A stretch of 18,873 nucleotides of DNA from Acholeplasmatales bacterium. Lineage in GTDB: Bacteria; Bacillota_I; Bacilli_A; Acholeplasmatales; Anaeroplasmataceae. The stretch is from positions 1 to 18,873 of the forward strand of contig JAILBI010000111.1 of NCBI GenBank assembly GCA_024681175.1. Reading direction: 5' to 3'. The notes below the pieces were generated by a model that did not search any database, had not been told where the DNA came from, and saw nothing but the letters and a program-made list of their open reading frames with translations. Made by a program: the position numbers and the translations under genes. Below are positions 366 through 18,873 of this stretch, piece by piece; the first letter of the stretch is position 1; each line of letters opens with the position of its first letter.

Positions 366-370
366 TTTGT

Positions 371-376
371 GGGGTG
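371..376 (+). promoter_or_regulatory. ribosome binding site deciding the ATG 382 start
   Basis: GGGGTG lies five bases before ATG 382. A TTG at 367 would extend the frame by five codons but would place this site inside the gene and has no site of its own, so 382 is preferred. Confidence 0.6.
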
Positions 377-381
377 AATAT

Positions 382-1875: not shown

Positions 1876-1883
1876 ATAAAATT

Positions 1884-1888
1884 GGGAG
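1884..1888 (+). promoter_or_regulatory. ribosome binding site deciding a TTG start at 1898
   Basis: GGGAG directly abuts ATG 1889, which is too close to use, but lies nine bases before TTG 1898. The protein from TTG 1898 lines up residue for residue with the N-termini of the paralogues at 4677 and 8362. Confidence 0.65.
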
Positions 1889-1897
1889 ATGATTGAT

Positions 1898-3067: not shown

Positions 3068-3083
3068 TTTTAGAGGTTTATTT

Positions 3084-4676: not shown

Positions 4677-6437
4677 ATGGATAATTATAAAGGATTATTA
4701 ATCAATAAAAAATTTGATGTAATTTATGATGAGGCTAAAAAGCTATTAGAAACTGATGATAATAATGCAGAATTATGGTATTTGTTATTCTTGTCTCAAA
4801 ATAATAATTACATTGGATTTGATTTGAAAAATGTAAATAATATAATGGCATTTAATCGTGCCGTAGAATGTGCAAACATTAATCAAAAATTACAATATAG
4901 CCTAGAATATCAGTTGTATTCTAATTTATTAAATTTGCCAGGATTTGATTTATTATTTAGAAATTATCAATTTAATAATTTTAAAACATGTAAAAAGATT
5001 TTGACTGAATTATTAGATGGCTTTTACGTAAATGTAAAGATTAGTGATGATATGCTAGAATCTATTGATTATGTTTTTAGTAGTGTATATTCTATTACCC
5101 AAGTACAGATTAAAATTGCTACTTTAAATTTACTTTATAATATTTCTTCTAATGAAAAAATTTTAAAAATGCTAGATTCGTTTTTAGCTTCAAATACAGT
5201 TGAAATGTTAATTCCAGAAGAATATCAAATTACAGATAATAATAATGTAATAAAGTATTTTTTAGAAAAAATATATGAAGAAGAAAAAGATGAAGTACAA
5301 ATAGAAAATGAACAATCAATATACGAATTTGATGGTGGTTTTGTAAATCAAGAAAATAATCCTTTAGAAGATATAGAAAGATATTTTGTTATAGATGGTA
5401 AAAAACTAAAACAATATATTGGTCCTTTTGAAGATGTTGTAATTCCAGAAGGTGTATTTGATGATATATCAACTGGAGCATTTAAAAATACATATGTTGT
5501 AAATGTTGTAATACCAAAAGGTATAAAAGCAATTAGAAATAGATGCTTTGAAGGATGTACAGAACTTAAAACTGTTATAATGTCAAACGATGTTAAATCA
5601 ATTGGCTTTGGTGCTTTTTCTGGGTGTACAAATTTAAAGTACATAAAATTATCATCAAACATAAAAACTATAGGAGATTATGCATTTTCTAGATGTAAAA
5701 ATCTAGCAGATATTAGTTTCCCTGAATGCCTAACATCTATAGGAGATTATGCATTTTTAAGATGTGCTAGTTTAGATAGACTTATAATTCCTAAAAATGT
5801 ATCTAGTATTTATAATACTACATTTAGGGATTGTACAAATGTAAGTGAAGTCATTGTTTATGAAAACAATCCTTACTATGATTCAAGGGATAAATGTAAC
5901 GCAATTATAGAAAAAGAATCAGGAAGATTAATCTTTGGATGTAAAAATTGTTTTATTCCAGAAGGAGTAAAGATTTTAGATGAATATGCATTTGCATGTA
6001 TTGATAAATTTGATGTTGTAATTCCTTCAAGTGTAACTAAAATATACGCCGATGCATTTTATGAGTGTGATGATATAAATAGTATTGTAGTTGATCCTAA
6101 AAATACAGTTTATGATTCAAGGGATGATTGTAACGCAATTATAGAAAAAGAAACAAATAATTTAATATTAGGTTGTAATAAAACTATAATTCCATATACG
6201 GTTACATCTATTGATACACATTCATTCTTTAAATGTAATACATTGCAAAAAATAATTATTCCACCAAGTGTTAAATTTATAAATCAAAATGCATTTGAAT
6301 TTTGTGAAAGGTTATATGAAATAATTATTTATTGCAGAAAAAAGCATTATGATAATATCAAAGAAGAATTAAACGAGAATTTTTATGATAAAAGCACATG
6401 TCCAAATGCTTTTGTCGAATTAAAATATGTATCTTAA
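4677..6437 (+). CDS. shared N-module fused to BspA-type LRR_5 repeats
   Basis: The predicted protein has 586 residues. Residues 1-185 are the shared module (LWYLLFL, QNNNY, FRNYQ). An acidic linker rich in Glu (about 200-235) leads to BspA-type LRR_5 repeats at about 235-575: units of 23 residues such as 'L..I.LSSNIKTIGDYAFSRC', plus two copies of the 'YDSRD.CNAIIEKE' insert that is familiar from BspA-like proteins of gut bacteria. Those proteins are usually secreted, but this one has no signal peptide and the N-module takes the place of one, so the repeats are probably intracellular. The ATG directly follows the stop of the upstream gene, with a purine-rich AGAGACGGG ribosome binding site inside that gene. 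An AT-only stretch of more than 100 bases follows, so this may end a transcription unit. Likely a recognition or adaptor protein; ligand unknown. Confidence 0.8.
   Translation: MDNYKGLLINKKFDVIYDEAKKLLETDDNNAELWYLLFLSQNNNYIGFDLKNVNNIMAFNRAVECANINQKLQYSLEYQLYSNLLNLPGFDLLFRNYQFNNFKTCKKILTELLDGFYVNVKISDDMLESIDYVFSSVYSITQVQIKIATLNLLYNISSNEKILKMLDSFLASNTVEMLIPEEYQITDNNNVIKYFLEKIYEEEKDEVQIENEQSIYEFDGGFVNQENNPLEDIERYFVIDGKKLKQYIGPFEDVVIPEGVFDDISTGAFKNTYVVNVVIPKGIKAIRNRCFEGCTELKTVIMSNDVKSIGFGAFSGCTNLKYIKLSSNIKTIGDYAFSRCKNLADISFPECLTSIGDYAFLRCASLDRLIIPKNVSSIYNTTFRDCTNVSEVIVYENNPYYDSRDKCNAIIEKESGRLIFGCKNCFIPEGVKILDEYAFACIDKFDVVIPSSVTKIYADAFYECDDINSIVVDPKNTVYDSRDDCNAIIEKETNNLILGCNKTIIPYTVTSIDTHSFFKCNTLQKIIIPPSVKFINQNAFEFCERLYEIIIYCRKKHYDNIKEELNENFYDKSTCPNAFVELKYVS
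5668..5757 (+). repeat. LRR_5 coding repeats, 69-bp period
   Basis: A 21-base identical segment occurs at 5668-5688 and 5737-5757, 69 bases (23 codons) apart, matching the LRR_5 unit length. A second pair of long similar segments begins at 5877 and 6111 (234 bases apart) and encodes the two 'YDSRD.CNAIIEKE' inserts. Confidence 0.8.
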
Positions 6438-6470
6438 AATATTGTTTAATTAATTTTTGAAAATTATAAT

Positions 6471-6492
6471 ATTAAAAATATATATTTTTAAT
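6471..6492. other. 22-bp perfect AT-only palindrome in intergenic gap
   Basis: Bases 6471-6481 are the exact reverse complement of 6482-6492. It lies between the stop at 6437 and the next gene. It could be a weak hairpin at the end of the upstream transcript or an operator. With only A and T the stem is weak, and palindromes of this kind arise easily in such AT-rich DNA. Confidence 0.35.
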
Positions 6493-6507
6493 GATTAGTA
6501 TATATTA

Positions 6508-6513
6508 TATAAT
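6508..6513 (+). promoter_or_regulatory. candidate -10 element for the 6551 gene
   Basis: TATAAT at 6508-6513 lies 38 bases before the chosen start. No good -35 hexamer stands 16-18 bases upstream (only T-rich sequence), so support is limited in this AT-rich gap. Confidence 0.3.
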
Positions 6514-6550
6514 TTAATAAATGTCATGCTATACAAAACAGGGGAAAAAG

Positions 6551-8344
6551 ATGAATGAGTTAGAGCAACTATTATTTGAAAATAAATATGAGGATGCTGC
6601 TATAAAAATAAAAGATATGCTTAAAGAGGATATGGGCAATTCTAAATTATGGTATCTATTATTTTTGGCACAAAATAACAATTATATTGATACAAATTTT
6701 GAAAAATTAAATAATGAAATAGCATTTAATAAAGCTTTAGAATTAGCAACTACCTATGACGAAATGAAATATAAAATGGAATTTAGTTTATATAAGGAAG
6801 CAACTAAGATAAAGGGCTTTTCTAAATTCTTAAGATTTTATCAATATGAAAAAGCATATAAATGTGTTTTGATTTTAAAAGAATTAAATGAAAAAAGTGA
6901 TGAAATAGTTGCGTTAAGTGATAATTTTATAGATTCTATCAAATATTTCTTTTCTGATATATCTAATGTTACAAAATATAATCTTATGTTATTAGCATTA
7001 AATTTTATATATATTATAAGTAATAATGAAAAAATAAAAGAATTAATCGAAGAAGAATTAGAAAATGATTTATATAATCTATCTAGTTTAAATCCATTTG
7101 TAATTTTAAATAAGAAAGAATTTGATGAAAAAATAGATTCAATAATTGATAATTATAATATACAGTTATTAAAACAAATGGAAGAAGATGCTTTAAATGG
7201 AAATTCGCTTTCGTGTCTTATTTGTGGATTGAACTACTTAACAGGTTATGATGGTTATAATAAAGATTATGAAAAAGCATATAATTATTTGAAAAAGGCT
7301 TATGATTTAGGCAATATGAGAGCGGCAAGCTATTTAGGTTTTCTTTATGAAAATGGTCTTTATGTGAAAACTGATTATAATGTAGCTAAAGATTATTATT
7401 TAATTTCTATAGAAAATTCAATTGATTCAAAAGAGAAATTGTTAAAATTATATTTAAATCATTTTAATACAAAAGAAAACAAACCAATAATAATGGAAAT
7501 GTTTTCGGATCTACTAAAAACGAACGAATCTAACAATCTATTGTTGTTGTATGGAAAGTATTTAATTGAAAATGATAATGATATTAATAAAGGTTTAGAT
7601 ATAATTAAATCGCTTGTTAAAGCTAAGTATGATATAGCAATTTTATATTGTATGAACTTATATTCAAGTGGAAAATATGTAGATATTAATTTAGATTTAG
7701 CATTTAATTTGGCGCTTGAATATAAAGATGTATCAGAATCCATTTTAGCATCTTTAGGTATGTTTTATTATCGTGGTAGTGGTACAAAAAAAGATATTGA
7801 TGAGGCATATATATGTCTAACACATGCCTATAACAAAGGCGAAAAAAATATATCACCATATATGCTTGCATTGATTTTTTCTGATGAAAATGAGAGGTTT
7901 TATGATAAAGAAAAAGCCTTTAGTTATATAAATGAAGCTATAAATTATTGTAAAGATGGTAAAAAATTATATTTATTAGGCAAATTTTATATAGAAGGTA
8001 AGATTATCGAAAAAAATCTATTAAAAGGACAAATGTTGTTATCTGAAAGTATGCTTTATGGTTATGGTAAGGCAGCCTATGATTTAGGTTTACTATACTA
8101 TGAAGGGAAAGAATTTGAAAAGAATGTTTCACTAGCTTATGAATTGTTTGAAAAGGCTAAAATCTTAGGCTATGATGAAGGAATAAATTATTTGTCTATT
8201 ATAGAAAATGAAAATAATTTAAAAAATAAAGATGAAACCATTTTAAAGAAAAAAAGGAAACGCATTATCGCTTTAATTGCTATTATCGCTGTTATAGTGA
8301 TAATTATAGTGTTAATTTATCTTTATTATAAATTTGTGTATTAA
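6551..8344 (+). CDS. shared N-module, Sel1-like array and C-terminal membrane anchor
   Basis: The predicted protein has 597 residues. The start at 6551 is preferred over ATG 6521 because AGGGG at 6540-6544 precedes it by six bases and the resulting N-terminus (MNELEQLLFENKYEDA) aligns with the paralogues. ATG 6521 has no ribosome binding site and sits just after a possible -10 element. Residues 1-185 are the shared module (LWYLLFL, QNNNY, LRFYQ). Residues of about 213-565 hold Sel1-like units, regular at both ends and eroded in the middle. A basic KKKRKR stretch (566-571) is followed by a single very hydrophobic helix of about 20 residues running almost to the C-terminus. This is the layout of a tail-anchored protein, with the module and repeats facing the cytoplasm. 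The next gene, also a module protein, follows after 17 bases. Likely a membrane-bound scaffold. Confidence 0.8.
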   Translation: MNELEQLLFENKYEDAAIKIKDMLKEDMGNSKLWYLLFLAQNNNYIDTNFEKLNNEIAFNKALELATTYDEMKYKMEFSLYKEATKIKGFSKFLRFYQYEKAYKCVLILKELNEKSDEIVALSDNFIDSIKYFFSDISNVTKYNLMLLALNFIYIISNNEKIKELIEEELENDLYNLSSLNPFVILNKKEFDEKIDSIIDNYNIQLLKQMEEDALNGNSLSCLICGLNYLTGYDGYNKDYEKAYNYLKKAYDLGNMRAASYLGFLYENGLYVKTDYNVAKDYYLISIENSIDSKEKLLKLYLNHFNTKENKPIIMEMFSDLLKTNESNNLLLLYGKYLIENDNDINKGLDIIKSLVKAKYDIAILYCMNLYSSGKYVDINLDLAFNLALEYKDVSESILASLGMFYYRGSGTKKDIDEAYICLTHAYNKGEKNISPYMLALIFSDENERFYDKEKAFSYINEAINYCKDGKKLYLLGKFYIEGKIIEKNLLKGQMLLSESMLYGYGKAAYDLGLLYYEGKEFEKNVSLAYELFEKAKILGYDEGINYLSIIENENNLKNKDETILKKKRKRIIALIAIIAVIVIIIVLIYLYYKFVY

Positions 8345-8361
8345 AGTTTTGGGAGGGCAAA

Positions 8362-9399
8362 ATGGAAAAGTATTGGAACATGCTTCTTAATGGTGAATAT
8401 TCAGATGTTCGAACCGAAGTGAAAAAATTAATAGAAGAACAATCGGATAATTATGAATTATGGTATTTATTGTTCTTATCGAGCAATCATAATTATCTAA
8501 ACTTCAAGCCTAACAATATTAGTAATGAACTGGCATTAAATAAAGCTAAGCAATATGCCTCTATAAAAGAAGAGGCTATCATTAGTGCTGAATATCAGCT
8601 TTATAGCAATATATATGATTTAAGAGGCTTTGATTTTGTATTTAGATATTATCAATTTGGCAAGTATAAGGAATGCTTAGCTAAATTAATAGAGATTATT
8701 AATGATCAAAGATTACATGTAAATACAGACAAGATTTCTGACTCTTTAGAATTGATTTTTGCAAAGACTGATAGTTTATTGAGTGTTAATTTACAGATTT
8801 TGATAATTAATGCATTATATATTAAAACTGGCTCAGAACAGTTTGAAATAATGTTTAATGAGAAATTAAAAAATCCATTATATGTAACATCATCTATTTT
8901 AGGATTAAAAGAATTATGTCCTAACTCATATGAGCTTAAGAAGATTTTAAATTCTTCACGTGTGTTTGGAAACAAAAAAACAGAAATGGAAAAAGAAATA
9001 ATTGCTTTAAAAAAGGATTTAGATGAAAAAGAAAAAGTAATTAAAGACAATGAAAATGACTTTAATAAACAAAAGGTTACAAATTATTCTTATAATGAAT
9101 TTAACAAGCAAAAAAGTCAAAATTCATATGAGTCAAATGTGATTTATGAAAAGAAAAATGATAGGGGACGTTTTAATAATAATAGGGTACATGAGGATGC
9201 TACTAAAGATTTGGTTTTAGGACTAATATTTTCATTTTTCTGTACACCATTTATTGGTTTAGTGTTTTTTATAAGTGGTTCTTCTAAAAGTGGCAGCGGT
9301 AGTTACGCTTGTAAAGTTTTGACAGCGTTATACATTGTTTTATTTATTTTAATTATATTATTCATTTTTATTGTTCTTGCGATTGGCATGGGCGTGTAG
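8362..9399 (+). CDS. shared N-module, coiled coil and two C-terminal membrane helices
   Basis: The predicted protein has 345 residues. The module occupies 1-195, with LWYLLFL at 33-39, SNHNY at 41-45, FRYYQ at 94-98 and LQILIINALY near 144-153. Residues of about 205-235 form a Glu/Lys-rich coiled coil. A polar, Asn/Lys-rich linker (about 235-280) leads to two hydrophobic helices at about 284-304 and 318-342 joined by a Gly/Ser loop. Both ends should therefore be cytoplasmic with a hairpin in the membrane. GGGAGGG at 8351-8357 precedes ATG 8362. A small membrane protein gene follows after 21 bases and is probably in the same transcript. The role may be to hold the module and its partners at the membrane. 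No enzyme motif seen. Confidence 0.8.
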   Translation: MEKYWNMLLNGEYSDVRTEVKKLIEEQSDNYELWYLLFLSSNHNYLNFKPNNISNELALNKAKQYASIKEEAIISAEYQLYSNIYDLRGFDFVFRYYQFGKYKECLAKLIEIINDQRLHVNTDKISDSLELIFAKTDSLLSVNLQILIINALYIKTGSEQFEIMFNEKLKNPLYVTSSILGLKELCPNSYELKKILNSSRVFGNKKTEMEKEIIALKKDLDEKEKVIKDNENDFNKQKVTNYSYNEFNKQKSQNSYESNVIYEKKNDRGRFNNNRVHEDATKDLVLGLIFSFFCTPFIGLVFFISGSSKSGSGSYACKVLTALYIVLFILIILFIFIVLAIGMGV

Positions 9400-9420
9400 A
9401 TGAATTAAAGGTGGTTAACT

Positions 9421-9720
9421 ATGACTAAATTATTATATTTTTTCGGAACGTTGCTTTCGTTTTGTTTTATGGTTTTAATTGCATATTTTTTGTATGAGTG
9501 GATTAAATATGATGTGATTAAAAAAGAAACAATAGAACTATTTGTATCATATAAATGGTTCTTAGTAATCGCTACTGCATCCTTTGTACTAACAGCATTT
9601 ATAAGCGGCTGGAGTGGCGGAATAATGATGACAGAATTTAAATTTAAGGGAATATTTATTATTGCTCTTCAAGTTTTATTTTTACTCGCTTTAATATTTA
9701 TGTATAAGATTCTTATATAA
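9421..9720 (+). CDS. small three-helix membrane protein of unknown family
   Basis: The predicted protein has 99 residues and is almost entirely membrane segments: helices at about 4-25, 45-64 and 76-97, joined by short loops, one with Lys/Asp-rich sequence (about 29-38) and one with a Gly-Trp-Ser-Gly-Gly stretch (about 63-67). There is no cleavable signal peptide and no catalytic motif. AAAGGTGG at about 9407-9413 gives a good ribosome binding site for ATG 9421. It follows the membrane-hairpin module protein by 21 bases, so the two may work together in the membrane. The next gene has its own promoter, so this gene probably ends its transcription unit. Family not recognised. Confidence 0.65.
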   Translation: MTKLLYFFGTLLSFCFMVLIAYFLYEWIKYDVIKKETIELFVSYKWFLVIATASFVLTAFISGWSGGIMMTEFKFKGIFIIALQVLFLLALIFMYKILI

Positions 9721-9741
9721 ATAGATTTTTATGCATTAATA

Positions 9742-9750
9742 TGATATAAT
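9742..9750 (+). promoter_or_regulatory. extended -10 promoter of the ESCRT-like operon
   Basis: TGATATAAT at 9742-9750 is a perfect extended -10 (TGnTATAAT), 35 bases before the start at 9786 and just after the stop of the previous gene at 9720. No convincing -35 hexamer is present, which extended -10 promoters can tolerate. It makes the seven-gene block from 9786 an independent transcription unit. Confidence 0.6.
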
Positions 9751-9773
9751 TTATAAAGATTTGAAAACGATAT

Positions 9774-9778
9774 GGAGG
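9774..9778 (+). promoter_or_regulatory. ribosome binding site deciding the ATG 9786 start
   Basis: GGAGG at 9774-9778 lies seven bases before ATG 9786 but only one base before ATG 9780, so the second ATG is the real start. Confidence 0.7.
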
Positions 9779-9785
9779 AATGGTT

Positions 9786-10712
9786 ATGGGTTTATTTAAG
9801 CAAAACATTTATTTAAAAATTGACGATGAAAATAACATCGTTGAAAAGAAAGACTTGGTAATAAAAAAGAGAAAAGTCGACATTAAAGTTGAATCAGGTG
9901 TTCAAGCGAAGATTGGAGCAGAAAATTTAATTGGTGGAGAAACTTATCCATATTCAAAAAAAGTATTTGGAAAAACTGCTGTTGCTTTCGTGTTTAGAAA
10001 AGACAAAAATTATGATTCAATCTCATTCAATTTTTCAACTGGTGAATATACACTTACACTAGATGAGCTTGAAGGAGCAAAAGCAAAATATTGTATTAAT
10101 GGTACAGCAACTTGCGAATTATTTAGTATTGAAAGATTAGCAAAATATTTCAATTCTAATGTTTCAATGAATGACGTATTAAAAGAAATTCAAGAAACAG
10201 TAAGAGATTCATTTGTTGCAGATGCAAAAATGTCAATTGGAAAATTCATTAATTCTGACACAAAGTCAAGTGATGCATACAATGAATTTGTTAAAATTCG
10301 TAAGGACATAGTAACAAGTAATACATCTTCAATCCAAAAGATTAATCAAATGGGTTTAGATATATCTGAATCAGGTATAGTATTTAAGTTGACACCTGTT
10401 ACTGATACAGAAGAGTTAGTTGATAAGGTTAATACAAAATTACAACAAAATGCAATTGAAAGATTAGATGAAGTTAAGTCTGATAAACAAAGAAATCAAA
10501 GACTTGAAGAAAAAGAAATGGATCAAGTGCATGAAGTAAATGTAATTAGAGCACAAAACACATCAATTACAGAAACAAAAATAGAAGGCAATAATCCTAA
10601 GGATGAAGAGAAAGAAGAAAAGGATACAAAGTTTTGTAAATTTTGTGGCGTAGAAGTTCCTGTTAAAGCTAAATTTTGTCCTAAGTGTGGACGTAATATT
10701 GAGGAGGTATAA
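9786..10712 (+). CDS. SPFH/Band 7-like protein with C-terminal zinc ribbon
   Basis: The predicted protein has 308 residues. The N-terminal part (about 1-115) is rich in beta strands. It is followed by helical segments and a stretch reading 'INQMGLDISESGIVFKL', typical of the end of an SPFH domain, where a helix runs into a Gly and a strand. A charged helix (about 215-245) and a polar linker lead to a zinc ribbon with C284, C287, C298 and C301. This SPFH-plus-zinc-ribbon layout recalls the YdjI/'virion core protein'-like family of Bacillota. SPFH proteins form ring or cage assemblies at membranes; there is no membrane helix here, so association would be peripheral. It is the first gene of the operon with the ESCRT-III-like and AAA proteins, with two bases to the next gene. 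The SPFH call is by pattern only. A scaffold or recruiter role is inferred. Confidence 0.6.
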   Translation: MGLFKQNIYLKIDDENNIVEKKDLVIKKRKVDIKVESGVQAKIGAENLIGGETYPYSKKVFGKTAVAFVFRKDKNYDSISFNFSTGEYTLTLDELEGAKAKYCINGTATCELFSIERLAKYFNSNVSMNDVLKEIQETVRDSFVADAKMSIGKFINSDTKSSDAYNEFVKIRKDIVTSNTSSIQKINQMGLDISESGIVFKLTPVTDTEELVDKVNTKLQQNAIERLDEVKSDKQRNQRLEEKEMDQVHEVNVIRAQNTSITETKIEGNNPKDEEKEEKDTKFCKFCGVEVPVKAKFCPKCGRNIEEV

Positions 10713-10714
10713 TT

Positions 10715-11659
10715 ATGAGTACTAAAAAAGAAAAAAAAGTAAATTCTAAAAAACAACAAGGCATAACAAACTTGGTCAATGATGAATTTGACCAAAAAGA
10801 TATTACAACACCTATAAAGCGTCCTGAAAGAGTTTCGCAAGCAGCAGAAAACAAAAGAAGTGCTGCATTGATTGAAAAAATTAAAAACGCATTAGAAGAT
10901 TTATCAACAACAGCAATTGATAATAAGTGTGATCAAGTTCAAAAGTCACTTATTAAAGATGCTGTTAAAAGATGCGAAACTTTAAATGTTTTTGATAATG
11001 TTGATGTTGCTGAAACTATTTGTTCTTTCTTGATGAGAGATATTAAAAATGCTAAAACAGCAATTAATCAAGGTAACTATTTAGCAATAAATGCACAATT
11101 ATATACTGTTAAAGATACACTTGAACATGCAGAGTCATCACCTTATTTTTATAAGGATCCTAATTCAGTAAAGATTCTTATCAGTAGAAATAAAGTTGTA
11201 ACTCAAAAGCATTTTCATCAAAGTGAGTTATTCAGTTTAGTAAATCAAATTAAATCTTATAAAGCATCTTATAAAGAAAACCCTGAAAGATATAAGGGAC
11301 AAATGAATATGTTTGCAAAGACATTAATGAACATTCAAGAAAGCATTAATAATAAAACTAAAGTTATCAATGAAGATGATAATAAAATTAAATTCTTTGA
11401 TTATGCATTAGATTCAGTTAAGATCGCTGCTGAAAATATTGATAGTGGTATTAAGTTTGATATTGATGACATTATAAAGACAGCTGAATTAAGTAAGGCT
11501 GACAGAGAACAATTCAAAGAAAAAATGGCAGATGCTTTATCTTCAATCAAACAAGATAATAGTAAAGTCAGCAATGAAGATTTTGAAGTAGATGATGAAG
11601 TTATATCATCTTCATCTAAGGCTGAAGAAGAAGTTGAAAACATTTTTAAAATGTATTAA
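10715..11659 (+). CDS. helical cytosolic protein of unknown family, second gene of the ESCRT-like operon
   Basis: The predicted protein has 314 residues. A basic, disordered-looking N-terminus (Lys-rich, 1-45) precedes a mostly helical body (about 45-285) with short amphipathic helices and no membrane segment, cysteine cluster or nucleotide-binding motif. The C-terminus is acidic and Ser-rich and ends in a short acidic-hydrophobic tail, EEEVENIFKMY. Tails of this kind in ESCRT-III partners can be ligands for MIT domains, which is only a suggestion here. GAGGAGG within the end of the SPFH gene precedes ATG 10715, and the gap is two bases, so translation is closely linked. I do not recognise the family. 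Its place between the SPFH-like and ESCRT-III-like genes suggests an adaptor or nucleator. Confidence 0.65.
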   Translation: MSTKKEKKVNSKKQQGITNLVNDEFDQKDITTPIKRPERVSQAAENKRSAALIEKIKNALEDLSTTAIDNKCDQVQKSLIKDAVKRCETLNVFDNVDVAETICSFLMRDIKNAKTAINQGNYLAINAQLYTVKDTLEHAESSPYFYKDPNSVKILISRNKVVTQKHFHQSELFSLVNQIKSYKASYKENPERYKGQMNMFAKTLMNIQESINNKTKVINEDDNKIKFFDYALDSVKIAAENIDSGIKFDIDDIIKTAELSKADREQFKEKMADALSSIKQDNSKVSNEDFEVDDEVISSSSKAEEEVENIFKMY

Positions 11660-11676
11660 TAGGAGAGGAAATTGTT

Positions 11677-12240
11677 ATGAAAAAAAATAATGAGCCTGCA
11701 ATGGATAGAAATTCGTTCAATTACGATATGAATAATTTAGCAAAAACTATTAGAAATGAAATAGATGATATCGATGAACAAATTGAAGAAGAAATGGAAA
11801 CAGCAAGTGATTACTTAGTATCTAAAAGAACTTCAGAATATGAAAGATGCAAAAGTAAGATCAATAGATTAATTAACTCTAAATTATTTAGAGAAGGTCA
11901 ATTAGATAAAATCGAAATGACAAGAGATAAAATTAACGCTATGTATACAGATATGGAATTAGCGAGAACTGTTGGTAAAGTATATTCAGGTTTTTCAACT
12001 TTTGCTAGCAACAAGGAAGTAAAAGAAATTACTAAAGAACTTGTTCAATTCAATAAGATGATGCAACAAACAAGTGGCAGTATCGAAAAGATGATGGCTG
12101 TATTTACAAGTGATATTCAACAAAATGATTACACTACAGAAGTTGATGCATCTTTAAAGGAAAGATCTGCACAAATGAACGAAGATATTTTCAAGGAAAT
12201 TGAAGAAAAAGCAGAAGCTAAAAGAAATATGCTTATCTAA
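11677..12240 (+). CDS. ESCRT-III (Snf7/CHMP)-like protein A
   Basis: The predicted protein has 187 residues and is all helical, close to the usual size of ESCRT-III proteins. Long helices at about 15-60 and 60-100 would make the hairpin core. Then come 'ARTVGKVYSGFSTF' (96-109) and 'VKEITKELVQFNKMMQ' (115-130), which match in spacing and hydrophobic pattern the CHMP1/CHMP2/Did2 segment 'A.A.G....AM..M......I...M..FE.Q'. Next is 'IEKMMAVFTSDI', which parallels the 'KEEMMNDAIDDAM' segment. The C-terminal helix (about 152-182) is acidic-basic mixed and may hold the regulatory or MIT-binding part, but no clean MIM1 motif (D..L..RL..L) is present. No membrane helix. The first helix is more acidic than in most ESCRT-III proteins. 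It lies directly before a MIT-AAA gene (14-base gap). Expected role: membrane-remodelling filament subunit. PspA/Vipp1 belong to the same superfamily but are a less good match. Confidence 0.65.
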   Translation: MKKNNEPAMDRNSFNYDMNNLAKTIRNEIDDIDEQIEEEMETASDYLVSKRTSEYERCKSKINRLINSKLFREGQLDKIEMTRDKINAMYTDMELARTVGKVYSGFSTFASNKEVKEITKELVQFNKMMQQTSGSIEKMMAVFTSDIQQNDYTTEVDASLKERSAQMNEDIFKEIEEKAEAKRNMLI

Positions 12241-12254
12241 AAAGTAGGTGTATT

Positions 12255-13493
12255 ATGGTTAATATAGATAATTTAAGAAATCAATTCATCGAATGTAAAA
12301 TAAAAATCGAAAATGCATTATATATTAGATCTTATGACAGTGCTAAAGAATATATTGCTGAAGGTTTAGAAATCTTAGATGAATTATTAAAGCATGATAG
12401 AAAGCCTAGAAATATTGCAACTTATAAGAAAACTATAAAAACACTTCAAGAAAAGCTAATAATGTGCCATGAAAATTTAGGTGAATCTCTTCCGTTTTTT
12501 GAAACAAATTATGTAGAAAATAAGACTACAAATTTAAAAACTGCACCTAAAACTACTAAAACTGTTAAAGTTGATAAAAACAAAAAAGACCAAAAAAGTG
12601 AAGATGGAATTCAATATAAATTTAATGATATTGATGTTAAAGCATTTTTAACAGATGTTAGTAATGATGTTGTTACATTTGAAGATGTCATTGGCATGGA
12701 TTCTGAAAAAGAAATGATTAAAAATGAATTCTTCTTAACAGAACAGGATATAGCTTTCAATAAGAAGATTGGTAAGAAAAACAAGAATTTCATTCTTTTA
12801 TATGGTCTTCCTGGTACTGGTAAAACATATTTTGCTAAGGCAGTTTCTAATGAATTAAATAATTATTTTAAAGGTAATGTGCGTTTTTATAGCGTCGTAT
12901 GCACTTCGCTTAAGGGAAGTGGCTATGGCGATACAGAAAATAGAATTTTAGCTATTTTTGAATTCGCTAAACAATTTGAACGCTGTGTATTATTTATGGA
13001 CGAATTTGAATCTATCGCATTATCTAGACAAAATGATTTACATGAGGTTACAGCATCTGCAGTATCAACACTTCTTCAGATGATAGATGGTTTTAATTCT
13101 AACAATGGATTATTATTAATCGCTGCAACTAACGTACCTTATAATTTAGATAGCGCTGTTGTTTCTCGTGCTAGCTTAAAAATAGAAGTACCACTACCTT
13201 CTTTTGATATTATTTATCCAACTTTAAAAAAGAAGCTAGGTGAGTTTGTCGCTTCTGATGTAAATTTAGAACAGTTAGCTCGTAAATTAAATGGATATAG
13301 TAATAGAGATATATCTAATTTCATCGTTATGGTATTAGATATATATTCTATGGAATATAAGAAGCACAGAGGCGTAAATCCTGAAGATTTTAAAATTTGC
13401 AATGAATATATAAATAGAGCATTAGCTAAATCTTCAAGTACAATTAAAGAATCTGAAGTTAAGAGATTAGAAGCTTATAATAAAGGTTTATAA
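12255..13493 (+). CDS. Vps4-like AAA ATPase 1 with N-terminal MIT-like domain
   Basis: The predicted protein has 412 residues. Residues 5-72 form a three-helix bundle with the MIT pattern: helix 1, then 'RSYDSAKEYIAEGLEILDEL' as helix 2 with the typical Y-[DE]-x-A opening, then helix 3. A Lys/Thr-rich linker (about 85-120) leads to a classical AAA module (about 140-385): Walker A GLPGTGKT 184-191, Walker B VLFMDE with D249 and E250, and sensor 1 N293. The C-terminal 'IKESEVKRLEAYNKG' matches the last helix of Vps4/Cdc48-type ATPases. Oddities: the pore-loop position usually held by Trp/Tyr is G223, with Y224 one place later. The arginine-finger region keeps only R305, and the usual Phe after it is Ala. 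Motor activity seems intact at the Walker motifs. It lies between the two ESCRT-III-like genes. Expected role: ATP-driven remodelling of those filaments. Confidence 0.75.
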   Translation: MVNIDNLRNQFIECKIKIENALYIRSYDSAKEYIAEGLEILDELLKHDRKPRNIATYKKTIKTLQEKLIMCHENLGESLPFFETNYVENKTTNLKTAPKTTKTVKVDKNKKDQKSEDGIQYKFNDIDVKAFLTDVSNDVVTFEDVIGMDSEKEMIKNEFFLTEQDIAFNKKIGKKNKNFILLYGLPGTGKTYFAKAVSNELNNYFKGNVRFYSVVCTSLKGSGYGDTENRILAIFEFAKQFERCVLFMDEFESIALSRQNDLHEVTASAVSTLLQMIDGFNSNNGLLLIAATNVPYNLDSAVVSRASLKIEVPLPSFDIIYPTLKKKLGEFVASDVNLEQLARKLNGYSNRDISNFIVMVLDIYSMEYKKHRGVNPEDFKICNEYINRALAKSSSTIKESEVKRLEAYNKGL

Positions 13494-13541
13494 TTTATTT
13501 TAATAAATTAGAAAAGTATATATAATAGAGGTTATTGAAAA

Positions 13542-14135
13542 ATGAATGAGACAAAAAGACAATTAAAAATGGCTGAAAATAAACAAAGAGCCAATGAAGT
13601 AATTAGACAATTTGATCAAGTTATCAATAGACTTGATAGAGGAATTGCTAAATGTAGAGAAAAGGCAAAAGAAGCTTTATTAAAAAGAAATGATATGAAC
13701 AGCTTCAAGCTTTTTGCTAGATCAATGAAATATTATCAAACAATGAAGACTAACATCGAAACAGTTAGATATCAATTTGAAAACTATTTAATTCAAGTTG
13801 AAATGGCAAGTTCTTTTGTTGGATTAAAGGATGTATTTGCTAAATCTGCTAAATTAATGGATGCAATGCCAAGCTTAAGTAGAAACAATAAAGACTTCAT
13901 GAAATTTAAAAAGAGCCTATTAAAGGGTCAAATTTCTATGGATTCTATCAATAATATGGTTTCTAATATGGACCCATCTCAAGATTATGAAATGTCAGAA
14001 GAAGATCTTAATGCATTAAAGGATGAAATCCTAATGACTAGTGGTGAGGCTAATGTTAATGTTAATACATCAACAAGCACAGCTACTAATACTTCAACTA
14101 ATAATTCGGACTTTTTCTCTGAATTAGACATTTAA
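13542..14135 (+). CDS. ESCRT-III (Snf7/CHMP)-like protein B
   Basis: The predicted protein has 197 residues and is all helical. It is strongly basic at first (residues 1-75, many Lys/Arg) and acidic later (145-165), the charge layout of CHMP proteins. 'REKAKEALLKRNDMNSFKLFARSM' spans 39-62 and parallels the CHMP2/CHMP1 'a1-loop-a2' hairpin. 'FAKSAKLMDAM' (99-109) matches the 'A.A.K.M..M' segment. 'MSEEDLNALKDEI' (151-163) is placed like the C-terminal a5 helix. A Thr/Asn/Ser-rich linker (about 170-188) leads to a short acidic-hydrophobic end, SDFFSELDI, a possible MIT ligand. AGAGG at 13527-13531 lies ten bases before ATG 13542. The 48-base gap before the gene is AT-rich and includes TATAAT at 13521, a possible but unproven internal promoter. 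Expected role: second filament subunit, distinct from protein A by its basic first helix. Confidence 0.7.
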   Translation: MNETKRQLKMAENKQRANEVIRQFDQVINRLDRGIAKCREKAKEALLKRNDMNSFKLFARSMKYYQTMKTNIETVRYQFENYLIQVEMASSFVGLKDVFAKSAKLMDAMPSLSRNNKDFMKFKKSLLKGQISMDSINNMVSNMDPSQDYEMSEEDLNALKDEILMTSGEANVNVNTSTSTATNTSTNNSDFFSELDI

Positions 14136-14152
14136 GAAAGAGGTGATGTTTC

Positions 14153-15325
14153 ATGGCATTCGATTATGCTATGAAGTATAGAACTTATGATGCAGCCTTA
14201 AAAAATGCTAAAGAATTACTTGAAAAAAATGATGTAGAAAATGGTCTTTTCTACTTAGATAAAGCTATTGCATTATCAAAAGAACTTTCAATTAAAACTG
14301 AAATTTTTGAATTGAAAACTAGGTTTTCTAAGGAACATAAAAAGCTTGTTGAAATAAGGGAAAATATTGTAAAAAATAAAATTAATCCATTTAGAAAAGT
14401 TGTTGAAACAAAAAGTGGACCTAATGAAAATGTAAACGAAAAAGAAGATAATGAACCTAAATTCTTTAAAACTGAACCACCAAGCGTAACACTTAAGGAT
14501 GTCGCTGGTTTGGAAGAAGTAAAAAAAGAAATAAAATTAAATGTTATTCTTCCAATGAAAAATCCTGATTTTTATTTTAAATATAAAGATGAAGTAGGAT
14601 GCCAAATTTTAATGTATGGTCCTCCAGGATGTGGAAAGAGCTTTGTTGCAGAAGCTATAGCTGGTGAATTAAAATGTTCATATGCTATAGTCAACACATT
14701 TGATATATTAGACAAATATGTAGGTGAGGCTCCAAAAAAGATTAAGCAATTATTTGAAGAAGCAAAACAATATGATAATTGTCTGATATTTTTTGACGAA
14801 TTAGACGCTTTATTTGCATCGCGCGACAGTAGTGACTCAGAACACACAAAAGACGTTTTAACAGCAGTTTTATCATGCATGTCTGGCTTTAATGCTAAAG
14901 GCAATAAAAAGAATGTTAGAGTTATAATTGGTGCGACAAATAGACCTTGGGCACTAGATAGTGCGCTTGTCAGAGGTAAGAGATTTGATACACACCTATA
15001 TGTAACATTACCAGACCATGATGCTAGATTATTCTTAATAAATAAAGCATTTAAGAATCGTCAACATTTATTAGAAAACACTGATGTTACTGTTGAAGAT
15101 TTAACTCAAAAATTTGATGGATATTCATGTGCTGATATAAGCGCTATGATAGATAAAATTACATCTAAAGCTATGGCTGAAGGCCTTTTAGAACTTGAAA
15201 AGGGTGAGGATGGTAACGTTCCTATCTGTATGAAGTTTGTAGATGAAGTAATGGCTAATTATAGAAATTCAGTCACTAAAGAAAGCCTTTTAAATTATGA
15301 AGCTTTCAAGAAGGGAGAATTCTAA
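14153..15325 (+). CDS. Vps4-like AAA ATPase 2 with N-terminal MIT-like domain
   Basis: The predicted protein has 390 residues. Residues 5-72 are a three-helix MIT-like bundle; a polar linker (about 80-108) follows. The AAA module has Walker A GPPGCGKS 156-163, Walker B LIFFDE with D215 and E216, sensor 1 N263, and arginine fingers R274 and R277 in 'ALVRGKRFD'. The pore loop is canonical, KYVGEA with Y189, closest of the three ATPases to Vps4/katanin 'KW.GES'. The end 'SVTKESLLNYEAFKKGEF' matches the C-terminal helix of Vps4/Cdc48-type ATPases. There is too little sequence between the small-domain helices for the Vps4 beta domain. AAGAGGTGAT before ATG 14153 is a near-perfect ribosome binding site. 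The stop overlaps the next start (TAATG at 15323-15327), so it is coupled to ATPase 3. Probably the main substrate-threading subunit, by inference from the intact pore loop. Confidence 0.8.
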   Translation: MAFDYAMKYRTYDAALKNAKELLEKNDVENGLFYLDKAIALSKELSIKTEIFELKTRFSKEHKKLVEIRENIVKNKINPFRKVVETKSGPNENVNEKEDNEPKFFKTEPPSVTLKDVAGLEEVKKEIKLNVILPMKNPDFYFKYKDEVGCQILMYGPPGCGKSFVAEAIAGELKCSYAIVNTFDILDKYVGEAPKKIKQLFEEAKQYDNCLIFFDELDALFASRDSSDSEHTKDVLTAVLSCMSGFNAKGNKKNVRVIIGATNRPWALDSALVRGKRFDTHLYVTLPDHDARLFLINKAFKNRQHLLENTDVTVEDLTQKFDGYSCADISAMIDKITSKAMAEGLLELEKGEDGNVPICMKFVDEVMANYRNSVTKESLLNYEAFKKGEF

Positions 15326-16821
15326 TGAGCGAATTAAAAGTTTTATTAGATTCTGTTAAAGCAGATGTTTTAAACAATAATTTTAAAAGAGCACAAGTAA
15401 ATGTAGAAAAGATTTTATATTTACTAAAGGCTGATTATGATAGTGGCATTAACAGAAGACAATCTGGTCTAGCTTTTAATAAACTATTAAAAGTAAGAAA
15501 AGAAATTATCGAAAATAATATTACTGACGTATCATATGATATACTTCATATTGAAAATCCTAATAAAAAAGCTTCTGATGATACAGATATAGATTTTTCA
15601 AGTAGCTCTCATTTCTTTGATGATATAGAAAGCGATGATAATACTAAAGAAGATTCTAATGAAAAACCATCTGAAGAAGAAGCTTTAAACAGTGAAGAAT
15701 CTAAATTAGATAATATTGAGGATGAAGTAGAAAATACTCAAGAAAAAGAAAGTGCTGAGGACAAGATATTAAACACTCCTTCAGAAGAAGAAAATTATGA
15801 TTTCCAATTTAATTGGAATGATTTACCAACAATAAAATTTGAAGATATTGCTGGTTTAGAGGACGTAAAAGAAATTGTAAGAGTAAAGGTATTATTACCT
15901 TTATTACATCCAGAAGCGACAGAAGGATATGTCACTTCAGGCGGTGGTGGAGTATGTCTTTATGGACCTCCAGGAACTGGTAAGACTATGATGGCGGCAG
16001 CGATTGCCAACACAATTGGTGCTAAATTTTGTTCTGTTACACCATCTGATTTATTACATCAGGGTGCTGGAAATACAGAAAAAGCAGTTAGAGCATTGTT
16101 CCAACAGGCTAGAAAATTTAAGTGCTCTGTAATCTATTTTGATGAGATGGATTCAATAGCCCCTAAATCAACTAAAAGCCAATATGCAAGACAATTAAGA
16201 AGCGAGTTTTTAGCACAGCTACAAGGTATTTCAGCTTATGGCGAAAAGAGTAATAATATATTATTCTTAATCTGCGCAACTAACAAGCCTTGGGATATAG
16301 ATTCTGCATTCTTAAGACCTGGTAGATTTGGCACTAAAGTTTATGTAGATTTACCTGATGATGATGCTAGATTATATATTGTTACTCATAGATTAGAAAA
16401 AATTAAAGACTTAGGTCATGTCGATATAAGTGATGATATTGATTTTGATCATATAGTTGAGGCAACTAATGGCTTTAACTGTTCTGATGTAACTAATTTA
16501 TTGTCAGTTGTTGAAGAAATCTCAATGAGAAGAGCATTTGAAAACAGTGGCTTAAAAACTATTTGTAACGAAGACTTTAATATTGCTTTAAATTCTGTTT
16601 CTTCATCAGTACAAAAAGAAGATATTATCAAGCTTAGAGAATGGCGTAAAGCTAATGATATAACTATTAATTTAGAAAAAAAGTCAACTGAAAAAGAAGA
16701 TGTATCAGAACCTGAATTAAAAGCTCAAGATAAAATTGTAGAAAGCGAAAATATTCCTACTGATTTAGACTCTAAAGATGATTTTTTAGGCGAAGATAAT
16801 TCAACAGATTCAAATAACTAA
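15325..16821 (+). CDS. Vps4-like AAA ATPase 3 with MIT-like domain and acidic extensions
   Basis: The predicted protein has 498 residues. Residues 3-66 form a short MIT-like helical bundle. Residues of about 80-158 are a long acidic, Ser/Glu/Asp-rich linker. The AAA module runs from about 168 to 425: Walker A GPPGTGKT 214-221, Walker B VIYFDE with D273 and E274, sensor 1 N320, and a textbook arginine-finger motif FLRPGRF with R331 and R334. The pore loop is unusual: where Vps4 has 'SKWMGESEK' this protein has 'LHQGAGNTEK', so the aromatic is G247. An acidic tail (about 445-498) follows the C-terminal helix 'SSVQKEDIIKLREW'. ATG 15325 shares one base with the stop of ATPase 2, so the two are translationally coupled and may form a mixed ring. 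The gene ends the operon, 10 bases before a strong terminator. ATP hydrolysis looks intact; substrate grip may depend on partners. Confidence 0.8.
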   Translation: MSELKVLLDSVKADVLNNNFKRAQVNVEKILYLLKADYDSGINRRQSGLAFNKLLKVRKEIIENNITDVSYDILHIENPNKKASDDTDIDFSSSSHFFDDIESDDNTKEDSNEKPSEEEALNSEESKLDNIEDEVENTQEKESAEDKILNTPSEEENYDFQFNWNDLPTIKFEDIAGLEDVKEIVRVKVLLPLLHPEATEGYVTSGGGGVCLYGPPGTGKTMMAAAIANTIGAKFCSVTPSDLLHQGAGNTEKAVRALFQQARKFKCSVIYFDEMDSIAPKSTKSQYARQLRSEFLAQLQGISAYGEKSNNILFLICATNKPWDIDSAFLRPGRFGTKVYVDLPDDDARLYIVTHRLEKIKDLGHVDISDDIDFDHIVEATNGFNCSDVTNLLSVVEEISMRRAFENSGLKTICNEDFNIALNSVSSSVQKEDIIKLREWRKANDITINLEKKSTEKEDVSEPELKAQDKIVESENIPTDLDSKDDFLGEDNSTDSNN

Positions 16822-16831
16822 TATTATACTT

Positions 16832-16861
16832 ATTCCTTAGGATTAATCCTAAGGAATTTTT
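16832..16861 (+). terminator. intrinsic terminator of the ESCRT-like operon
   Basis: Bases 16832-16857 are a perfect 26-base palindrome (11-bp stem if TTAA is the loop) followed by a run of five T. It begins 10 bases after the stop of the last operon gene. Because the stem is a complete palindrome it can form a hairpin from either strand, but only the + side has genes reading into it. Confidence 0.9.
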
Positions 16862-16895
16862 AAGTACATTTTTTATAATTTATTGTATTAAAATA

Positions 16896-16924
16896 TTAAA
16901 AAGTCAATAAAACTATGTTATAAT
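16896..16924 (+). promoter_or_regulatory. promoter of the tandem-module gene
   Basis: An extended -10 TGTTATAAT (16916-16924) has a weak -35-like TTAAAA (16896-16901, 4 of 6 to TTGACA) 17 bases before the TATAAT. It lies after the terminator and about 70 bases before the start at 16994, so the transcript would carry a roughly 60-base leader. Confidence 0.55.
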
Positions 16925-16975
16925 GAATCGATTTGGTTTTTATTTTAAAATTGAAAAAAACAATTGATTTTAAAT

Positions 16976-16984
16976 AGAGGGGAG
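16976..16984 (+). promoter_or_regulatory. ribosome binding site deciding the ATG 16994 start
   Basis: AGAGGGGAG lies nine bases before ATG 16994. The longer frame from TTG 16964 would contain this site inside the coding region and does not align with the paralogues. Confidence 0.7.
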
Positions 16985-16993
16985 TTTTTTAAA

Positions 16994-18517
16994 ATGAATT
17001 ATATTGATTTTTTAAGGGACAAAAAATATGATGAACTTAAATTAGTCTTAGAAGATGAATTAACAAAAAATCCAGAAAACGGTAATTTATGGTATTTATT
17101 ATTTTTGTGTACTAATAACAATTTTTATGATTTTAATCCTAATAAAATTAATGATTATAGAGATTCATTTTTTAAATCTATATTATATTCATCACTAGAA
17201 GAAAAAATGAAAATATTTGTCGACATACAGCTATATACTTACATTATTCCTTTTTATGGCTTTGGTAATATAATTAGAAAATATCAAATGAAACAATATG
17301 TTGAATGTATAGATGATTTAATTGTGCATGTAAATGATGAAAAGGTGTCAGCTAATTATACAAAAGTTTCTGAAGCATTAGAAGTAATATTTGAAAAGGC
17401 AACTGATGTTGCTGAACTTAATTTACAAATAATTATTTTAAATGCGTTATATCTAAAATCTTCATCAAATATATTTTTAGGTATGCTACAAAAGAAATTT
17501 GCTAATCCATTATTTCAATTTTCAAATATTGGTTTTATGACTCAATGCATGCATGCAGTAGAACTAAAATCATATTTAGTTCATAAACATTTATTAGTAA
17601 GTAATGAAGAGGATAAAGAATCAATCGCTCGCGTCATTGATTCTATAAAAGATCAAAAGGATTTTGAAATTCAACCTAAGTTAACTCAAAAATCAGATTA
17701 TAATCCACAAGTAATTAAGGATTATTCAAAAAGACTAAGAGAGGGCAAATATGATAATTTAGCAGAAGATATAAGAAATGATTTAAAAGTAAATCCTTAC
17801 GAATGGATTTTATGGTATCTTTTATTCTTATCAGAAAATCGTAATTACCTTAATTTTAATCCTAAAAAAGTAGTTGATATTGAATCATTTAACAACGCTA
17901 AGAAGTTTTCGTCTAAAGAAATTGAATTAATTATTGATGCTGAATATAGATTATTTTCAAATACATATAATTATTCTGTCTTTGTTCAAATGTTTAGATA
18001 TTATCAATATCGTAAATATGAACAGTGCTTAGTTCAACTTATCATGTTCTTAAACGATAAAAGTAATAGAGTTACAAATCCTAAAATGATTTTTAATGCA
18101 TTATCTATATTATTTAAATCTCCATCATGTGTAACTGATTTAAATTTCCAAATATTGATTATCAATGCATTATATTTAAAATTAAATTATCAAGAATTTG
18201 AAAAATTATTCTTATTAAAAATTCAAGATCCTATGTATAATTATTCTAAAATAGATCTTATTACATTAGCCAAAGATTCAAAGGAATTGATGAAATATAT
18301 GGCATATGATACAATAATAAATTTAGATGATATTAGAAATATAGAGGAAGAAAAAAATACATATGACCCTCATTCCAAAAATTATGAACCTGATAAGAGT
18401 AATCTAAATCCTAATAATGTATATGGAACTAGAATTGGTTTATCTCGTCCTACATATGGTATAGGCTATGGTATAGTTGATTTAGTAGATATAATCTCAC
18501 ATATATTATTGAGATAA
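16994..18517 (+). CDS. protein with two tandem copies of the shared N-module
   Basis: The predicted protein has 507 residues. Copy 1 covers residues 1 to about 190 (LWYLLFL, TNNNF, IRKYQ, Y.EC, LQIIILNALYLK). Copy 2 covers about 240 to 430 (LWYLLFL, ENRNY, FRYYQ, Y.QC, FQILIINALYLK). The copies are clearly related but diverged, so the duplication is not recent. The last 60 or so residues are a polar linker with Asn/Asp/Pro, then a Gly/Tyr-rich stretch (GIGYGIVD), and end in a short hydrophobic segment, DLVDIISHILLR, that may be an amphipathic helix. No signal peptide or strong membrane helix is visible. With two modules it could bridge two copies of whatever the module binds. Separate promoter after the operon terminator; a further module gene follows 45 bases downstream. 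Function unknown. Confidence 0.8.
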   Translation: MNYIDFLRDKKYDELKLVLEDELTKNPENGNLWYLLFLCTNNNFYDFNPNKINDYRDSFFKSILYSSLEEKMKIFVDIQLYTYIIPFYGFGNIIRKYQMKQYVECIDDLIVHVNDEKVSANYTKVSEALEVIFEKATDVAELNLQIIILNALYLKSSSNIFLGMLQKKFANPLFQFSNIGFMTQCMHAVELKSYLVHKHLLVSNEEDKESIARVIDSIKDQKDFEIQPKLTQKSDYNPQVIKDYSKRLREGKYDNLAEDIRNDLKVNPYEWILWYLLFLSENRNYLNFNPKKVVDIESFNNAKKFSSKEIELIIDAEYRLFSNTYNYSVFVQMFRYYQYRKYEQCLVQLIMFLNDKSNRVTNPKMIFNALSILFKSPSCVTDLNFQILIINALYLKLNYQEFEKLFLLKIQDPMYNYSKIDLITLAKDSKELMKYMAYDTIINLDDIRNIEEEKNTYDPHSKNYEPDKSNLNPNNVYGTRIGLSRPTYGIGYGIVDLVDIISHILLR

Positions 18518-18550
18518 TTATTATTAAACAATAGAAAGAATATTTAGTAA

Positions 18551-18555
18551 GGGAG
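18551..18555 (+). promoter_or_regulatory. ribosome binding site deciding a GTG start at 18563
   Basis: GGGAG lies seven bases before GTG 18563, and the N-terminus read from that GTG (MEKYWNLL) is nearly identical to the start of the module protein at 8362 (MEKYWNMLL). Confidence 0.7.
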
Positions 18556-18562
18556 AAAAAAA

Positions 18563-18873
18563 GTGGAAAAGTATTGGAATCTTTTAAAAGAAGAAAAGTA
18601 TTCTGAACTTTCAGAACAAATTTTAATAGAACTGAGTGTAAAATTTAATGATTATGAATTATGGTATTTATTATTTTTGTGTCAAAATAATAATTATTAT
18701 GATTTTGATGTAGAAAAAATCAATAATAAAGAAACTTTAGATAAAGCTTTATTATATGCTCCTTATGATAAAAAAAAGATTATAGAAAATGAATTATTAT
18801 TATATTCAAATTTAAAAGAATTTAAAGGGTTTGACCATATATTAAGACATTATCAATTAAAAGAATATAATAA
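18563..18873 (+). CDS. start of a further shared N-module protein (3' end outside window)
   Basis: The frame opens with GTG 18563 and is still open at the right edge, giving about 103 residues. They are plainly the shared module: MEKYWNLL start, LWYLLFL, QNNNY, and 'LRHYQLKEYN' in the order and spacing of the other copies. This is the eighth copy of the module in the window, in the seventh gene. Its C-terminal part, which differs in every paralogue, is not visible, so no specific role can be given. It follows the tandem-module gene by 45 bases in the same direction, without a visible terminator between, so they are probably co-transcribed. Confidence 0.85.
   Translation, partial: MEKYWNLLKEEKYSELSEQILIELSVKFNDYELWYLLFLCQNNNYYDFDVEKINNKETLDKALLYAPYDKKKIIENELLLYSNLKEFKGFDHILRHYQLKEYN

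Follow-up and report, generated by a model that had tools for sequence, protein, structure and literature searches.

Does a low-GC Gram-positive bacterium hold, within one operon, both the filament proteins and the dedicated ATPases of a machine of the ESCRT-III (endosomal sorting complex required for transport III)/Vps4 type? The question is raised by seven genes on contig JAILBI010000111.1 of an Acholeplasmatales bacterium (assembly GCA_024681175.1), of which positions 1 to 18,873, an 18,873-nucleotide stretch hereafter called the window, were analysed. A 2024 survey places the pairing of ESCRT-III with a Vps4-type ATPase only in archaea and eukaryotes; PspA and Vipp1 are named as the bacterial ESCRT-III relatives (PMC7618577, PMC8281802), and according to PMC7615534 no clear homologue of Vps4 is present in bacteria, which usually have a single protein of the PspA type. 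An earlier note on this DNA had described an operon resembling a full ESCRT-III/Vps4 machine. 'Full' proved too strong, as the family matches obtained for the seven proteins include no ESCRT-0/I/II-like winged-helix part; most of the tests named beforehand leave the core of the proposal standing, namely that a low-GC Gram-positive encodes ESCRT-III-type proteins together with Vps4-like AAA ATPases. We consider it likely that the operon encodes a bacterial ESCRT-III/Vps4-type membrane-remodelling machine, with filaments predicted to assemble at the inner surface of the cell membrane and to be remodelled with ATP. The genes share one strand, are separated by gaps of −1 to 48 bases and are followed by a terminator-like hairpin, the earlier note having described a single transcription unit:

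9786–16821 (+), whole operon: seven genes on one strand, in the order zinc-ribbon, coiled-coil, E3A, AAA1, SNF7, AAA2, AAA3
9786–10712 (+), zinc-ribbon protein, 308 aa; the part before the ribbon is without a family match
10715–11659 (+), coiled-coil/helical protein, 314 aa; fast evolving
11677–12240 (+), E3A, ESCRT-III-like protein A, 187 aa; helical
12255–13493 (+), AAA1, 412 aa; three helices bundled at the N-terminus, gripping position of pore loop 1 not aromatic (PF00004, E=3.2e-31)
13542–14135 (+), SNF7, ESCRT-III-like protein B, 197 aa; low-confidence linker and a C-terminal DFFxELDI-type tail
14153–15325 (+), AAA2, Vps4/CdvC-like, 390 aa; canonical K-Y-V-G pore loop (PF00004, E=4.6e-37)
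15325–16821 (+), AAA3, 498 aa; pore loop Q-G-x-G without an aromatic (PF00004, E=2.9e-33)
16832–16857 (+), terminator-like hairpin 3′ of the last gene; 11 pairs, 4 of them G-C, then a T run

Two Snf7-type proteins

The window copy of SNF7 matches Pfam Snf7 (PF03357) with an E value of 4.9e-6 and 26.7 bits, just below the gathering score of 27.3, and PF03357 is a precomputed assignment for 17 of 55 SNF7 homologues, the window copy among them. Snf7 is the family matched by most members in both gene families, namely by three of the 17 members of a wider SNF7 set and by six of the nine E3A family members (best E=1.6e-6), and on account of the latter we read E3A as a Snf7 paralogue. The two CHMP/Did2-like proteins that the earlier note had recognised are therefore retained, E3A through its family and not through the window copy, which itself has no Pfam Snf7 match. 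Membership of Snf7, as judged from sequence, is supported at the family level and is marginal for single proteins; other helical families are matched by one or two members of the SNF7 or E3A sets, and PspA_IM30 (PF04012) is not among the families of SNF7, E3A or their alignments.

The structure check proposed for the 13542 product gave a predicted fold that is ESCRT-III-like. Helices are predicted at residues 3–48, 52–107, 117–126, 134–143, 145–148, 153–167 and 192–195, that is, a long α1–α2 hairpin followed by short helices, with a predicted local distance difference test (pLDDT) score of 76–95 over residues 11–90 and below 60 from about residue 91. Foldseek returned members of the ESCRT-III superfamily at all of ranks 1–22, with no E value below 0.027, and in VIA-align unrelated helical proteins rank close behind. 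Across 40 sequences, the first 50 residues of the family are basic (mean charge +2.9) and the tail is acidic (mean −6.5). The short C-terminal motif, which follows the low-confidence linker in the model, is found in 39 of the 40, the pattern having been written after inspection of those same sequences.

E3A looks, on sequence grounds, like a diverged paralogue of SNF7. Its profile gave eight matches in the Protein Data Bank (PDB) at E≤5, CHMP1B being the third, sixth and seventh of them (E from 0.097 to 0.26; residues 10–170 or 15–169) and unrelated chains the two best (E 0.048 and 0.061), while hhalign of the E3A family against the SNF7 family returned E=4.3e-4 at a probability of 34 %. The first 50 residues of E3A are acidic in the window copy.

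Two further kinds of SNF7 relative were observed. Proteins P0060–P0071 and P0073 form a second bacterial clade with a DFFxxIN-type tail, 31–38 % identical to the window SNF7 (12 aligned). Separately, a 446-aa protein (L014:1089–2429, minus strand) matches the SNF7 family weakly over its first ~90 residues (E=8.1e-5) and ends in a TIR domain (E=3.3e-14), making it a possible ESCRT-III-like/TIR fusion.

Three AAA ATPases and their partner proteins

The three AAA ATPases of the earlier note are all present, each with a PF00004 match and intact Walker A and Walker B motifs. They differ in pore loop 1. Substrate is contacted in Vps4 by K205, W206 and M207 of the pore loop, and all classic-clade members compared have W, F or Y at the second of these positions (PMC5716660). 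K-Y-V-G is found in all seven AAA2 sequences, whereas an aromatic occupies the gripping position in none of the seven AAA1 sequences (the window copy has a tyrosine one place after it, and two copies have histidine there) and an aromatic pore loop is present in none of six AAA3 sequences. A classical AAA cassette with a K-aromatic-x-G pore loop is thus, by sequence, a property of AAA2 alone of the three paralogues.

CdvC is the best NCBIfam match of both AAA2 (186.2 bits) and AAA3 (162.1 bits), the latter being nearly tied with CDC48 (161.1 bits), and it scores 87.1 bits with AAA1; the cut-off of the CdvC model NF041006 (650 bits) is reached by none of the three, and the CDC48 score of AAA3 is likewise far under the curated value. 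AAA1 scores best against IteA (NCBIfam) and IetA (PADLOC). When the AAA2 profile was compared with the PDB, p97/Cdc48 and relatives led, with no Vps4 among the best 60 of 265 matches. The Vps4/Cdc48-type C-terminal helix attributed to each ATPase appears as a sub-threshold Vps4_C match in AAA2 (E=0.062) and AAA3 (E=0.0058) and is not among the 25 families listed for AAA1.

The MIT-like N-terminal bundle that had likewise been attributed to each ATPase could be assessed structurally for AAA1, the only one of the three with a predicted structure. In its AlphaFold2 model, helices 4–23, 27–47 and 51–75 (pLDDT 81–94) form a three-helix bundle, which we take to have the size of an MIT domain. Beyond this predicted bundle, MIT homology is putative. 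Pfam MIT was matched by only one of ten ATPase N-termini, at E=0.072. Aligned with yeast MIT using hhalign, the AAA1 N-terminus is collinear (score reached by 2 of 150 shuffles), that of AAA2 is out of register (4/150) and the score of that of AAA3 is reached by 55/150; the corresponding values for the controls A1, A6 and A2 were 6, 19 and 75 of 150. Among the other loci, we observed a second AAA1-like gene without the N-terminal domain, positioned between AAA1 and SNF7 (L012:7470–8360, minus strand), and an AAA3 with a long C-terminal extension that by eye consists of BspA-type leucine-rich repeats (L010:1346–3508, minus strand).

Of the SPFH-like protein with a zinc ribbon, the zinc ribbon is confirmed and the SPFH assignment is not. 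PF13240 is present in all seven homologues, and no SPFH/Band-7 family occurs among the 13 Pfam families listed for the window copy; for the seven members together, none is present in the 18 NCBIfam families or in the first 25 of the 53 from Pfam. The coiled-coil protein keeps its position and size in all seven loci, the window copy being 13–23 % identical to those in the other six, and BLAST detects only the copy in the goat locus described below (L002). No Pfam family is common to two of its seven members; a CdvA-like coiled coil appears at E=0.2 in the window copy only.

Distribution, host genomes and genomic setting

Gene order is kept in seven of seven loci, comprising the window and six other genomes of one Bacilli order, a recurrence beyond chance that bears out the check on conservation of the gene set. 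Snf7-type and AAA genes are neighbours in each of them, and being encoded with ESCRT-III genes is one criterion for Vps4/CdvC in PMC10936438. AAA3 was seen in six of the seven; it is missing from L001 because that contig ends first. Two of the loci, L001 (water deer) and L002 (goat), come from metagenome-assembled genomes of Bacilli from ruminant stomachs; one carrier is from a goat rumen.

Searching 279 genomes of the order to which the L002 genome belongs, we found SNF7 profile matches in seven, six of them strong and one weak (G054, E=8.1e-5); in all six strong genomes the gene set is present and its order is kept. These six are also the ones matched by the AAA2 N-domain profile, and full-length zinc-ribbon matches (E 1.7e-117 or better) are likewise confined to them, although 180 of the 279 genomes match the zinc-ribbon search in all, the other listed rows being mainly the zinc ribbon alone. 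As the AAA2 N-domain and zinc-ribbon profiles were built from those same loci, the informative part of these searches is that no stray copies occur elsewhere in the 279 genomes. Samples of the class (395 genomes) and phylum (392 genomes) yielded only G007.

The operon lies directly 3′ of ftsA–ftsZ in L001 and a few genes from ezrA in L002 (Pfam), and mraZ, rsmH, rpsD and thiI were recognised by eye beside these genes. Since the L001 contig carries ftsA–ftsZ and the L002 contig ezrA, these hosts are bacteria, the window's own host being judged from such relatives, and contamination with archaeal or eukaryotic DNA was rejected on the same grounds. FtsZ was found in seven of seven genomes tested, including all six carriers. 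PspA passed the cut-off in none of the six carriers and none of the 279 genomes (completeness unstated), with five sub-threshold matches; the idea that the operon replaces PspA specifically in its carriers was therefore rejected.

Pairwise identities of AAA2 follow those of FtsZ poorly (Spearman 0.40, p 0.14), while the other four operon genes compared gave values of 0.51 to 0.65 (p 0.051 to 0.009), each over 15 non-independent pairs. Thus, G001 and G074 share 82 % FtsZ identity and 51 % AAA2 identity, against 75 % and 74 % for G001 and G002. This loose tracking, together with operon neighbours that vary among the loci, fits an accessory system that is at times lost, replaced or transferred. 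We rejected a mobile element as its vehicle: the SNF7 family has no relative on viral contigs, the window SNF7 has no plasmid match, and phage matches of AAA2 are to the AAA core only (104 phage records, all below 60 % identity and none covering 80 %).

Turning to the setting of the operon in the window, where G+C content is 21–31 % in 1000-base steps, the first gene most likely starts at 9786, with GGAGGA six bases 5′ of the start, and the intergenic distances are, 5′ to 3′, 2, 17, 14, 48, 17 and −1 bases. No promoter-like site is listed in 9657–9785, and such sites are overall no more frequent than chance would give (48.2 expected, 40 found); the region has 4 terminator-like sites, against 1.9±1.5 expected. 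Both flanks (1889–9399 and 16964–18517) carry an unnamed ~190-residue domain, seven copies of it in six proteins, joined to Sel1 repeats (Pfam-checked in 1889–3067) and, as judged by eye, to membrane helices or leucine-rich repeats; a search without a positive control gave no match to this repeat family in the six carrier genomes. BspA-type leucine-rich repeats are also present at 367–1875. In two of the seven loci, a trypsin-like protease with an N-terminal zinc ribbon lies 3′ of AAA3 (L002:8504–9583, Pfam-checked; L010:236–1171, similar by eye).

Function, alternatives and significance

Three other explanations were weighed. The set could be a division accessory that acts after the FtsZ ring and severs the remaining membrane bridge, the task of CdvB/CdvC in Sulfolobus. 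The positions of the L001 operon directly after ftsA–ftsZ and of the L002 operon close to ezrA, and the presence of FtsZ in all six carriers, are consistent with this, as is the statement in PMC7615534 that FtsZ apparently does not make the final cut and that ESCRT-III relatives might do so in some bacteria. However, ftsZ is beside the operon in only one of seven loci, and a system held by six of 279 genomes is not needed for division by the order as a whole; we consider a dedicated division role unlikely. That the operon is a phage-defence or conflict system, its AAA ATPases acting on invaders and its helical proteins serving as sensors or scaffolds, seems to us quite improbable. IetA model matches (PADLOC) of AAA1 (4e-37), AAA2 (1.2e-34) and AAA3 (7.9e-27), the patchy distribution, the poor agreement of AAA2 with FtsZ and the related genome in which a Snf7-like N-terminus precedes a TIR domain (L014) point in that direction. 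Yet the IetA match is to an AAA core common to many families, the seven operon proteins have no IetS among their PADLOC matches (the scan extended to part of the neighbouring genes), the other four genes compared do follow FtsZ, and the viral, plasmid and phage searches described above argue against it.

A more sceptical explanation is that the helical proteins are generic coiled coils which only resemble ESCRT-III, the operon being an AAA chaperone or disassembly system with coiled-coil partners. The marginal Pfam and Foldseek scores leave room for it, as do the unrelated helical proteins that come close behind in VIA-align and ahead of CHMP1B for the E3A profile, and the other helical families matched by one or two members; nevertheless, Snf7 leads in both gene families (3/17 and 6/9), the 22 best Foldseek rows are all of the ESCRT-III superfamily and CdvC is the best score for AAA2 and AAA3, so that this explanation appears very improbable.

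We therefore return to an ESCRT-III/Vps4-type machine as the probable product of the operon. In the mechanism that we propose, the zinc-ribbon and coiled-coil proteins would recruit or nucleate the filament, in the manner of YdjI for PspA in Bacillus subtilis, and E3A and SNF7 would form a composite filament of two paralogues. The conserved short tails at the C-termini of the filament proteins may be bound by the N-terminal three-helix bundles of the ATPases; the filament subunits would be threaded by AAA2, the sole paralogue with a canonical aromatic pore loop, and AAA1 and AAA3 could have a regulatory or structural part, perhaps within a single mixed ring. Membrane repair or remodelling is the most likely use, in bacteria with FtsZ and without recognisable PspA; candidate roles would be repair of the envelope, release of vesicles or the last cut in division. 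A bolder version, to which we lean slightly against committing, would be a complete bacterial ESCRT branch, with a composite two-paralogue filament, a mixed ring of three AAA paralogues of which one type grips the substrate, and membrane recruitment by the zinc-ribbon protein, operating alongside FtsZ and without PspA.

Several known systems share features with the operon. The archaeal Cdv system (CdvA; CdvB, which is ESCRT-III; CdvC, which is Vps4) similarly has Snf7-type genes beside a CdvC-like AAA ATPase and a coiled-coil protein. In the operon, by contrast, the hosts are bacteria with FtsZ, there are two ESCRT-III-like proteins and three ATPase paralogues, two of the latter without a pore-loop aromatic, and the likeness to CdvA goes no further than the E=0.2 match of a single member out of seven. 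The Meth_adaptin ESCRT loci of archaea (PMC10936438) are reminiscent of the operon in combining Vps4 and ESCRT-III with a protein that has a zinc ribbon and a coiled coil; that protein is of the SPFH family, a homology not found for the zinc-ribbon protein of the operon, and no adaptin-appendage, GOLD or ProX domain is among the Pfam matches of the seven window proteins. PspA/Vipp1 with YdjI likewise combines a bacterial member of the ESCRT-III superfamily with a membrane-tethering partner (PMC8581546, PMC8281802), and the recruitment of PspA by the SPFH protein YdjI in B. subtilis is the nearest recruitment precedent (PMC8581546). The operon differs in that its proteins match Snf7 and not PspA_IM30, in its two paralogues and dedicated AAA ATPases, and in its occurrence in genomes without PspA over the cut-off.

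The novelty in bacteria suggested by the earlier note is partly anticipated by PMC11237479, which reports a bacterial Snf7-clade protein whose gene adjoins that of an AAA+ ATPase. The operon in that case is of another kind: its Snf7 homologue carries a transmembrane segment, and the AAA+ gene lies next to it in a transport operon, which may include ABC-transporter and OmpA/PBPB genes. In the other case described there, vps4-like genes were transferred to bacteria, an unrelated gene having taken the place of snf7. No earlier description of the present operon was recognised from titles and the beginnings of abstracts, in a search that covered few subscription journals and no bioRxiv preprints. 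According to PMC12134362, ESCRT orthologues are absent from M. smithii, a methanogen of the gut, and hence there is no support for that methanogen as the source. By its parts, as far as sequence allows, the system would be ESCRT-III/Vps4; it appears new in its host and composition, and its function is putative.

If this is true, the map of ESCRT distribution would have to be revised to take in FtsZ-bearing Bacilli with a conserved operon of three genes for Vps4-like ATPases and two of the Snf7 type, with a direct bearing on whether ESCRT originated in archaea, existed before them or reached bacteria by transfer. With a gripping pore loop in only one of its three ATPase paralogues, the system would also offer a natural test of the number of working subunits required in a ring that disassembles ESCRT filaments.

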